DNA of 64,000 bases from Alkalihalobacillus sp. FSL W8-0930. GTDB taxonomy: Bacteria > Bacillota > Bacilli > Bacillales > Bacillaceae_D. Positions 9,817-12,168 of this stretch are shown here, one piece after another. The notes under the pieces were generated by a model that was given only the letters and a program-made list of their open reading frames with translations, was not told the origin of the DNA and searched no databases. The stretch covers positions 1,736,001 through 1,800,000 of the forward strand of contig CP150183.1 of assembly GCA_037965595.1 (NCBI GenBank), in the 5' to 3' direction. Positions within the stretch are counted from its first letter, which is position 1. Each line of letters opens with the position of its first letter. The translations under genes were made by a program, and so were the position numbers.

Positions 9817-9841
9817 GAACAAAGATGTTGGAGTGAAATGG

Positions 9842-10936
9842 ATGAAGCGTGAAGTAGTAGTGATTGGGCTTGGATTAATCGGAGGATCCATTGCCCTTGG
9901 AATTAGAAAAGAACATGATGTAAAAATGGTCGGCTTTGATATCAATGATGATCAAGTCAGAATGGCCGTGTCGCTCGGAATTATTGACGAAAAAGCCGAT
10001 TCTCTTGAATCAGCTGTAGCTACAGCTGATTTAATTGTACTTGCTGTACCTGTAGCAGCCTCAGAAAAGCTTTTAACAGATATGTTAGACTTTACATTTA
10101 AAGAGGGTGCCATTATTACAGATGTAGGAAGCACCAAACAAACCATCTGTACAAAGGCAAAGGAACTACAAAATAAAGTATCCTTTGTTGGCGGTCATCC
10201 AATGGCAGGCTCTCATAAAAGTGGTGTGAGCGCAGCGAAAGTACATTTATTTGAAAATGCGTTTTATGTGTTCACACCTGATGAGGCGACTTCTCCACAG
10301 GTATTAGATATGTTGAAGGATTGGCTTAAGGGGACTAAAGCCACGTTTCTTGAAATGTCACCCGAAAAACATGATGAAATTACAGGAGCAATCAGTCACT
10401 TCCCACACATCATCGCAGCTAGTTTAGTGCATCATGTTGAAACAGAAGAAGATCGGAATCCAAATGTGACAAGACTTGCAGCTGGAGGATTTCGTGATAT
10501 TACACGAATTGCTTCCTCAAGTCCTGAAATGTGGCGTGATATCTTACTTCAAAATCAGTCGGGTTTACTAAGACTTCTTAATACGTGGGAACTGGAAATG
10601 CAAAAAGTCCGGACTCTGCTCGAGTCACGCGACAGCGAAGGTATTTTTACTTATTTTGAGCGGGCTAAACACTTTCGTGAAAAGCTTCCAGAGCGAAAAA
10701 AAGGGGCGATCCCTGCTTTTTACGATTTATTTGTTGATGTACCTGACCATCCAGGTGCCATTTCTGATGTGACGAGCATACTTGCTCAGTCTGACATCAG
10801 CTTAACAAACATTCGAATTTTAGAGACACGTGAAGATATCATGGGCGTACTGCGCTTAAGCTTCCGTTCTGAAGAAGACCGTGAGCAAGCAAGAGAACAG
10901 CTGGGACTTCATACATTTGAAAGTTATACATTATAA
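9842..10936 (+). CDS. tyrA: Prephenate dehydrogenase with ACT domain
   Basis: The product oxidises prephenate to 4-hydroxyphenylpyruvate with NAD in tyrosine synthesis. The N-terminal Rossmann motif is GLGLIGGS, followed by GGHPMAGSHKSG, where the family binds substrate. The last 75 or so residues (LFVDVPDHPGAISDV onward) form an ACT domain, the usual site of tyrosine feedback. The ATG at 9842 fits the GGAG at 9830-9833 better than the in-frame GTG at 9833. This is the last gene of the supraoperon; in B. subtilis aroE would follow but it is not here. Confidence 0.95.
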   Translation: MKREVVVIGLGLIGGSIALGIRKEHDVKMVGFDINDDQVRMAVSLGIIDEKADSLESAVATADLIVLAVPVAASEKLLTDMLDFTFKEGAIITDVGSTKQTICTKAKELQNKVSFVGGHPMAGSHKSGVSAAKVHLFENAFYVFTPDEATSPQVLDMLKDWLKGTKATFLEMSPEKHDEITGAISHFPHIIAASLVHHVETEEDRNPNVTRLAAGGFRDITRIASSSPEMWRDILLQNQSGLLRLLNTWELEMQKVRTLLESRDSEGIFTYFERAKHFREKLPERKKGAIPAFYDLFVDVPDHPGAISDVTSILAQSDISLTNIRILETREDIMGVLRLSFRSEEDREQAREQLGLHTFESYTL

Positions 10937-10942
10937 CATTTT

Positions 10943-10973
10943 GCCTCTAGGGATAATTTCCTTAGAGGCTTTT
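10943..10973 (+). terminator. Terminator after tyrA
   Basis: GCCTCTAGGGA (10943-10953) pairs with TTCCTTAGAGGC over 11 bp (one G-U), with a five-base loop and then TTTTC. It ends the aromatic supraoperon and faces the minus-strand terminator immediately to its right. Confidence 0.8.
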
Positions 10974-10979
10974 CTGCAT

Positions 10980-11082
10980 AAAAAAAGCCCTGTTATTATA
11001 GGCGATAGCGCTTACAATAACAGGGTCAGCAAATGTGCTGATTCAATAGTATGGATAGGAGTGGAGAGAAACCATACGCTTA
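10980..11082 (-). ncRNA. Candidate small RNA of about 103 nt
   Basis: A sigma-A promoter at 11089-11116 on the minus strand points at this segment, which ends in a strong terminator whose T-run is the minus strand of 10980-10986. Three stem-loops follow in order on the minus strand. First is GTATGG/CCATAC (arms 11072-11077 and 11049-11054) with the 17-base loop TTTCTCTCCACTCCTAT. Second is TCAGCA/TGCTGA (11026-11041). Third is the terminator CCCTGTTAT/ATAACAGGG (10988-11025) with a 20-base loop. No convincing reading frame is present. The C/U-rich loop is complementary to purine-rich ribosome binding sites, as in several trans-acting RNAs of Firmicutes. I do not recognise the family; the transcript itself is inferred. 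Confidence 0.62.
11003..11016. promoter_or_regulatory. Second cre-like site in the terminator loop
   Basis: CGATAGCGCTTACA matches 13 of 14 positions of the cre consensus and shares GCTTACA with the box in the promoter 80 bases away. It lies inside the 20-base loop of the candidate small RNA terminator. It may allow CcpA looping or be a chance or duplicated copy. Confidence 0.4.
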
Positions 11083-11088
11083 ACCTTT

Positions 11089-11116
11089 ATTATATAGAAA
11101 ACGCTTACATTGTCAA
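11089..11116 (-). promoter_or_regulatory. Sigma-A promoter with a cre box in its spacer
   Basis: On the minus strand, TTGACA (11111-11116) and TATAAT (11089-11094) are both perfect and 16 bases apart. The spacer holds a cre-like site; read on the plus strand, 11096-11109 is AGAAAACGCTTACA, matching 13 of 14 positions of TGWNANCGNTNWCA. A bound CcpA would block polymerase, so glucose repression is predicted. Confidence 0.78.
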
Positions 11117-11214: not shown

Positions 11215-12168
11215 ATGTATTTGTTAAACGAAGCAGTAAGAATTAAACATGGTCAAGTTTGCAAGCTTTCTTACGTAATCAAAGAGGGCAAGGTTGATTA
11301 TATTAAAGAAAGAATGCCTTACTGGAACAAATGGCGAGTAGACTCATCCTCTTTTGTACTTGCGCCTAGCAAAGTAGGATTTGAATCCTCGTTTTTAACA
11401 TCGGATCAAACGATGAATAGAGCTCAGATGGAGCGTCAGTGGCTAAAACGTGGAGTGACAACGCTAGCATTGACTAAGGACGCTCACAGTGAGAGATCTC
11501 TTCCAGAGGCTTTTTACAGGGCACACGAGCAAATGCTCGGAAGCACTCTCGATTATGTAATTGGTATGATGATCCCCTTACGACTGTTAAAACCGTCTCT
11601 TCTATATCAATGTCGTCGTTTAAAGATCCCATTTTTACAAATCATGATAGAGGAAGATACGTTAAGTCAACTACCTTGGAGTCATTTGGCAGATGCGTTA
11701 GTGAGTTATCAAACCATGCTTTTACCGCATTTTAGTGGACAGGCTTCTAAAAACCGAGGAATAGAGCGAAAGTGGAAGGATTATTGTACTCAATATGGAA
11801 TATCTACAACAGGCATAGATGAGGTCTGGACAAAGGAAACGCTACAAAAAAGTGGATTATATCCAACAAAAGGCGAGCTTTTAATCGGAAGCGATGCCGA
11901 TTATCTATTGTTCCATCAGCATGTAGAACATTATCCGACTAGGCGAGCCCGAATGGTTGCGGCAAGCGATAATCTTGATTATGATAGGGATGAGCCAGCA
12001 ATCGTTGTTCGTCGTGGACACGTATTAAAGGCTGGTCCATCCTGTTTCCTAAATAATCAGGGGAACCCAATGAGTATCGCTAAGCCTAGACGTTTATTGT
12101 CGATTGAATATGCGACGTCCACAATAGGCATACAGCACGTGCAGGATGAGTTGAATCGAGTAATATAA
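11215..12168 (+). CDS. Degenerate amidohydrolase-like protein
   Basis: I do not recognise a characterised homologue. The 317-residue protein begins with a beta-rich segment and ends with KGELLIGSDADYLLF and AIVVRRGHVLKAG, which resembles the C-terminal composite domain of dihydroorotase and deaminase-type amidohydrolases. The usual HxH metal site near the N-terminus and the GTD aspartate motif are not visible, so it may be a non-catalytic member. AGGAGG lies seven bases before the ATG. It stands between tyrA and ypiA, the place of aroE in B. subtilis, but shows no shikimate dehydrogenase motif. Confidence 0.7.
   Translation: MYLLNEAVRIKHGQVCKLSYVIKEGKVDYIKERMPYWNKWRVDSSSFVLAPSKVGFESSFLTSDQTMNRAQMERQWLKRGVTTLALTKDAHSERSLPEAFYRAHEQMLGSTLDYVIGMMIPLRLLKPSLLYQCRRLKIPFLQIMIEEDTLSQLPWSHLADALVSYQTMLLPHFSGQASKNRGIERKWKDYCTQYGISTTGIDEVWTKETLQKSGLYPTKGELLIGSDADYLLFHQHVEHYPTRRARMVAASDNLDYDRDEPAIVVRRGHVLKAGPSCFLNNQGNPMSIAKPRRLLSIEYATSTIGIQHVQDELNRVI

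Follow-up and report, generated by a model that had tools for sequence, protein, structure and literature searches.

A conserved small RNA gene beside the hisC-tyrA-aroA cluster of Bacilli, with cre-like sites and a loop complementary to ribosome-binding sites of amino-acid synthesis genes

A small RNA gene conserved among Bacilli was identified on the minus strand beside tyrA in a 64,000-nucleotide stretch of the Alkalihalobacillus sp. FSL W8-0930 genome, hereafter the window. Computation across related genomes identified a conserved RNA gene with a recurrent location, cre-like sites, and a complementarity to ribosome-binding sites that tracks the presence of the RNA. We consider it quite probable that the gene specifies a trans-acting small RNA which is repressed by CcpA and which, when no preferred sugar is available, represses the entry enzymes of amino-acid synthesis; its transcription, the binding of CcpA and the sign of its effect, pairing in vivo, and the resulting repression are predictions from sequence. 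The design of a trans-acting regulatory RNA, proposed in an earlier note on this DNA, gained support from the comparative evidence, namely conservation, cre-like sites, and seed-target complementarity.

The unit occupies the interval between tyrA (9833-10936, plus strand) and an unnamed open reading frame (11215-12168, plus strand), and runs on the minus strand from a promoter through a folded RNA to a terminator (11116-10980). The -35 box TTGACA (11111-11116) and the -10 box TATAAT (11089-11094), both on the minus strand and separated by 16 nt, form a sigma-A-like promoter (11116-11089) that matched at all 12 scored positions. It ranked first of the 10 promoter-like sites in the 4 kb scanned, where the number of sites equaled the shuffle mean (10.0) and all others reached at most 10/12; the near-perfect promoter described earlier was thus the sole 12/12 site there. 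Most of the relatives' loci inspected had a TTGAC-type -35 element, and at -10 those inspected had TATAAT or a near form of it. Placing the start about 7 nt past the -10 box gives a predicted RNA of approximately 103 nt (10980-11082, minus strand), whose 3' end lies 43 nt from the tyrA stop codon and does not reach the terminator-like hairpin of tyrA (10943-10969), so that the RNA and tyrA do not overlap. By these sequence features, the unit possesses its own promoter and intrinsic terminator and overlaps no neighbor, as expected of a small RNA gene. Its earlier description as antisense to the gap downstream of tyrA holds for the location but not for the function, the likely targets being elsewhere in the genome. 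The plus-strand open reading frame (317 amino acids), which separates the RNA from a TPR gene, matched nothing in Pfam or NCBIfam at E ≤ 0.001. A relative of this frame adjoined the RNA in many loci by tblastn; a search for its relatives in genome contigs confirmed none.

The 103-nt RNA was predicted to fold into three hairpins with an energy of -34.2 kcal/mol (z = -6.15), which 0 of 200 shuffled sequences equaled. The 5' hairpin (11049-11077, minus strand) consists of a 6-bp stem and an open 17-nt loop, TTTCTCTCCACTCCTAT (11055-11071, minus strand), the complement of GGAGTGGAGAG-type ribosome-binding sites. It is followed on the same strand by hairpin 2, TCAGCACATTTGCTGA (11026-11041), which takes the form TTAGC..GCTAA in many relatives, by the terminator hairpin (10988-11025), and by a U-tract of eight residues (10980-10987). 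The length, the three stem-loops, the terminator and the position of the open loop therefore agreed with the earlier description. A simple terminator scan did not list the hairpin at 11025-10988, probably because of its interior mismatch. For counts of unpaired probability and cre-like sites, 136 distinct members were drawn from 190 loci, excluding L239 and L255. Among these members, the seed CTCTCCACTCC had a mean unpaired probability of 0.92 and a minimum of 0.64, and at least six pairs formed within the final 50 nt in 135. The RNA accordingly carries a conserved, accessible seed, which is complementary to several mRNAs (see below), another property expected of a trans-acting small RNA.

The RNA, which the earlier note had described as lacking a protein gene, has a frame of 10 codons in its 5' hairpin (MVSLHSYPYY in the window). 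A short coding RNA or a leader peptide would fit this ATG (at 11075) and its 10 codons inside a hairpin, but we regard that reading as extremely improbable and rejected it. The inferred transcript contains no Shine-Dalgarno sequence for the frame, third codon positions are as invariant as the others, and the relatives' frame diverges past codon 9; for these reasons, the RNA was read as non-coding. Moreover, CTG or GTG replaces ATG in matches from families f60, f74 and f70 (known from the 18-mer matches alone), and the loop has lost one base in two f14 members. In these two loci (L131 and L133), the loop reads ..TCCACTCC-ATCCAT and the terminator has no cre-like site.

The RNA was matched in 41 of 60 relatives, including all 36 examined from the window's own family. 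When 397 genomes from the order were searched with a covariance model, 75 proved to carry it (E ≤ 0.01). An 18-mer of the hairpin, allowing at most one mismatch, had matches in 155 of the 398 class genomes, a number that includes some chance matches, as the reversed control gave 4 hits and two loci (L239 and L255) among the 30 read from the class were judged to be chance. An exact 26-mer occurred in 98 stretches of named genomes, whose genera include Alkalicoccobacillus, Shouchella, Halalkalibacter, Fictibacillus and Aneurinibacillus, as well as Marinococcus, Melghirimyces, Paenibacillus and one Brevibacillus metagenome-assembled genome. Alkalihalophilus pseudofirmus OF4 and Halalkalibacterium halodurans also appear in these records. 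None of these 98 exact-match stretches bore a B. subtilis title, which may explain why the RNA was missed; a diverged copy in that species is possible. The strongest constraint lay on the 5' hairpin, of which 32 nt, AGCGTATGGTTTCTCTCCACTCCTATCCATAC, were identical in all 30 family loci read, whereas the flanks, hairpin 2 and the terminator varied; its ATGG..CCAT 25-mer was intact in 120 of the 136 members.

No Rfam family accounted for the RNA. By gathering score, the window yielded no match at the RNA, and its sole match was the pan motif (RF01749, 26369-26454, plus strand, 58.6 bits), an ordinary cis-regulatory RNA elsewhere in the window and of a kind that usually precedes pantothenate genes. 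Twelve loci from other families likewise gave no match to Rfam 15 at the gathering threshold, which, over 13 sources, agrees with the earlier statement that no named RNA was known at this locus. A permissive search at the RNA (E ≤ 10) returned seven sub-threshold matches, the best being Srn266; with 24.2 bits against a gathering score of 63, and with matches on both strands, it was taken as chance and rejected as an identity.

Covariation was assessed in a family alignment of 28 of the 30 loci (without L017 and L024), which had also supplied the structure. The covariation score was 0.341 compared with 0.162 in shuffles (0 of 500 as high), and paired cells amounted to 96.3% compared with 86.0%. 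Neither the pairs in which both sides had changed (8 vs 6.8 in shuffles, 126 of 500) nor the pair types (22 vs 19.9, 67 of 500) were in excess among these 28 members. The both-side changes fell on seven of the eight scored terminator pairs and on one pair of hairpin 2, which has C-G in place of U-A in 5 of 28 rows. Being invariant throughout the family, the 5' stem gave no compensatory changes. Outside its invariant core, 83 distinct flank pairs revealed no continuous helix above expectation in the lower stem (paired vs expected: pair 2, 64 vs 60.5; pair 3, 20 vs 23.6; pair 4, 49 vs 37.3; pair 6, 46 vs 34.4), and the clear excess outside the family at two of eight pairs was counted as no clear support. 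Consequently, the covariance check suggested with the earlier note favored the terminator and one pair of hairpin 2 but not the 5' stem; the 5' hairpin is supported by energy alone, and it is its sequence that selection holds.

The location of the gene was also retained. On one side of the RNA, hisC, tyrA or the EPSP synthase gene was the closest of the tested genes in 128 of 146 loci; some genomes contributed twice to this count, and alignments of the EPSP synthase query spanned no more than about 400 bases. Relative to these genes, the RNA lay on the same strand in 102 loci and on the opposite strand in 26, so it appears to have been flipped in place rather than to be the leader of a fixed neighbor. 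A cis-acting leader or attenuator of a downstream gene would account for hairpins followed by a terminator and for the same-strand arrangement with the aro genes in 102 of the 146 loci. However, in the 26 convergent loci, the window's among them, no gene directly follows on the strand of the RNA, and the nearest tested downstream gene varies between lineages; this explanation is therefore very unlikely and was rejected.

Two sites of the window's RNA gene resemble the cre consensus, TGNAANCGNWNNCA. Site 1, TGTAAGCGTTTTCT (11096-11109, minus strand), fills the promoter spacer, and site 2, TGTAAGCGCTATCG (11003-11016, minus strand), lies inside the terminator stem. Each matched 8 of the 9 specified positions, and shuffles of the respective stretch did as well in 2 of 300 and 4 of 300 cases. 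The earlier note had described the spacer site and missed the second. Across the 136 members, a terminator site of at least 8/9 was present in 100, of which 35 were 9/9 (shuffles, 1.8%), in comparison to 29 with such a promoter site (shuffles, 1.1%). The spacer site thus exists in the window but is not widely kept, and the terminator site is the prevalent one. A cre-like site in the promoter or terminator, as expected of a CcpA regulon member, was found in 111 members by sequence, and in neither place in 25. Terminator sites occurred both where the RNA gene shares the strand of its neighbors (66 cases) and where it lies on the opposite one (25). In L016 and L017, the terminator loop is reversed while the cre match is retained, which suggests that selection there acts on the DNA rather than on the RNA sequence.

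In B. subtilis, a cre site within a promoter or farther downstream usually signals repression. By analogy, the promoter and terminator positions both predict that bound CcpA would repress the RNA gene. LacI-family operators resemble each other, and here the sign of control is read from site position; the sites might therefore serve another LacI-type regulator, or CcpA might activate the RNA. We hold either to be unlikely, though less so than the other alternatives considered here, since 35 of 136 members have a terminator site that agrees with the cre consensus at 9/9, against another regulator, and sites so placed normally mean repression, against activation. Repression by CcpA remains the favored reading.

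The window's genome contains GGAGTGGAGAG, the exact complement, four times. One copy lies within the RNA gene, and the other three stand directly at start codons, those of genes for DAHP synthase, a hotdog thioesterase and an ABC ATPase. Among the family sites listed and read, genes recurring 3' of GGAGTGGAGA..ATG encoded DAHP synthase, homoserine dehydrogenase (hom) and phosphoserine aminotransferase (serC), with FolD, SerA and PheA less frequent (the names FolD and PheA were assigned by eye). Across the order, GGAGTGGAGA close to ATG was, judged by eye, also frequent in some RNA-lacking families such as f27, f10, f6 and f36, and such raw counts were therefore set aside for orthologue-by-orthologue tests. 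Starts were chosen by one procedure, and duplex energies of -18 or below in a 41-nt search interval were counted as sites. For orthologues, RNA-bearing and RNA-lacking genomes were hand-chosen to spread over families, and DAHP synthase of the window's family was taken from the whole family. The label RNA-lacking was assigned from the covariance model and 18-mer searches; diverged copies may have escaped these, f28 being one candidate.

DAHP synthase had such a site in 29 of 30 cases within the family (loci were obtained from 30 of its 41 genomes). Outside the family, it had one in 19 of 29 RNA-bearing genomes (L359 lacked a usable start) compared with 4 of 30 RNA-lacking ones. For hom, the proportions were 12/17 and 0/13, for serC 8/15 and 0/10, and for serA 10/17 and 0/9; background genes from RNA-bearing loci reached the cut-off in 84 of 736 cases. 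The corresponding p values outside the discovery family were 7.7e-6 (DAHP synthase), 0.003 (hom), 0.013 (serC) and 0.023 (serA), all optimistic, because the genomes are related and the RNA-lacking controls come from the order only while the RNA-bearing genomes come partly from the wider class, so that p overstates independence. That the targets were picked from the family's own sites is addressed by this test outside it. For each of the four genes, 0 of 300 shuffled loops reached the real mean or the real difference between RNA-bearing and RNA-lacking genomes, in line with the complementarity to Shine-Dalgarno sequences claimed for the loop in the earlier note.

In the window's genome, duplex energies were -23.7 for DAHP synthase, -21.4 for hom and -20.8 for serA; serC was weak, with -14.0 at its start and -18.4 in a wider interval, the latter from a comparison that excluded weak paralogues (serC locus L514 and serA loci L541-L544). 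Distant examples include ggataggaggagagagacATG at hom in f68, taken for Brevibacillus (L482), and aagaggtggagagaagATG at DAHP synthase in Aneurinibacillus (L352). Exceptions occurred in both directions: L354 and L355 bear the RNA without a DAHP synthase site, as does L486 without a hom site, and L396 and two f28 loci (L369 and L370) have a good DAHP synthase site and are labeled RNA-lacking. The f28 loci carry GGAGTGGAGTA at DAHP synthase although the RNA was not detected, reflecting either a diverged RNA or its recent loss.

A different reading is that this is a conserved small RNA whose main partner is a protein, which it titrates, or another small RNA, the match to ribosome-binding sites being incidental. 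Any C/U-rich loop pairs with purine-rich sites, and within the family the 5' stem equals the loop in invariance, beyond the obvious need of pairing with several mRNAs. In addition, two reports describe RosA and RsaI as carbon-controlled RNAs with sponge or sponge-like roles (PMC8216469, PMC9266662). Loops shuffled at the same composition nevertheless performed worse than the real one on all four genes, and we place the probability of this reading low, at around one chance in ten.

Pairing with mRNAs thus remains preferred. The four enzymes draw PEP and erythrose-4-phosphate, 3-phosphoglycerate, and aspartate/oxaloacetate into amino acids. We propose that an anciently conserved gene for a trans-acting small RNA, at the end of the hisC-tyrA-aroA cluster, would be repressed by CcpA at the promoter and/or the terminator-DNA cre as long as a preferred sugar is available. 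Bound to the promoter cre, CcpA would exclude polymerase; at the terminator cre, it might act as a roadblock or by looping between the two sites. Without active CcpA, RNA levels would rise. The open loop, with the core CUCUCCACUCC, would then base-pair to ribosome-binding sites of the GGAGUGGAGAG type on the mRNAs for DAHP synthase, homoserine dehydrogenase, SerA and SerC and block their translation. This block would spare PEP, erythrose-4-phosphate, 3-phosphoglycerate and oxaloacetate, and would shut these steps of amino-acid synthesis in cells that subsist on amino acids or a poor carbon source.

Among known systems, GcvB of Escherichia coli, which is controlled by the glycine system rather than by carbon, offers a functional parallel, although it is a different RNA with other seed regions. 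RsaOG, also called RsaI, is an Rfam family, and it was not among the seven matches of the window's RNA at E ≤ 10. GcvB is reported to repress numerous amino-acid genes, among them aroG, which encodes DAHP synthase and with whose translation initiation region it pairs (PMC11878033). RsaI and RosA show that CcpA-repressed small RNAs exist in Firmicutes (PMC9266662, PMC8216469). RsaI of Staphylococcus aureus is reported to be repressed by CcpA, derepressed without glucose, and able to block Shine-Dalgarno sequences of some mRNAs (PMC9266662); it acts through a C-rich region and is not conserved in Bacilli (PMC8216469). The window's RNA has cre-like sites and a C/U-rich loop, and would resemble RsaI if it is indeed repressed by CcpA and blocks Shine-Dalgarno sequences; the RsaI targets named are glcU_2, fn3K and icaR (PMC9266662). 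RosA of Bacillus subtilis is reported to be a stand-alone, CcpA-repressed RNA (PMC8216469), resembling the window's RNA, whose CcpA control is predicted. It differs in having G-rich regions and species of 92-225 nt and in being a sponge of RoxS and FsrA (PMC8216469, PMC8464778). The G-rich regions that pair with C-rich regions of RoxS and FsrA have no equivalent in the conserved loop of the window's RNA, which is C/U-rich and whose complements are mRNA ribosome-binding sites. SR1 of Bacillus subtilis is reported to be a trans-acting RNA under CcpN and to a lesser extent CcpA, with homologues only in Bacillales; unlike the window's RNA, it has 205 nt, also encodes a peptide, and targets ahrC and kinA (PMC8464778).

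We favor, by a modest margin over even odds, the broader proposal of a class-wide small RNA of Bacilli that serves as a functional counterpart of GcvB, whose terminator DNA doubles as a CcpA operator, and whose matching ribosome-binding sites were lost in RNA-less lineages. In the full-text literature searched, outside which most subscription papers lie, the 14-nt loop core was printed in no paper, and no paper on such a CcpA-linked amino-acid small RNA was found. If the reading is right, the RNA would be an unusually sequence-conserved small RNA of Bacilli linking CcpA to amino-acid synthesis, carried by Paenibacillus-, Brevibacillus-, Fictibacillus- and Alkalihalobacillus-type bacteria, and would couple committed steps toward aromatic amino acids, serine and threonine to sugar supply in the carrier lineages. 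One stretch would then sense carbon as an operator at the DNA level and, once transcribed, form the terminator hairpin, an arrangement testable with simple reporters. The presence and absence of the RNA across lineages also offers a natural experiment on the co-evolution of small RNAs and their targets.

Two further sets of loci were noted. A sugar-transporter-like permease (named by eye) has GGAGTGGAGA at its start in L291, L295, L298, L302 and L399, all from the window's genus, and is possibly a genus-specific target. In four f73 loci (L251-L254), TTATGGTTTCTCTCCACTCCTATC is kept and the 3' stem arm CCATAC is absent, meaning that the seed outlives the hairpin; a leader, ttaacaccttaactagcagtt, stands directly 5' of TTATGGTTTCTCTCCACTCCTATC in three of these loci and slightly farther upstream in the fourth.
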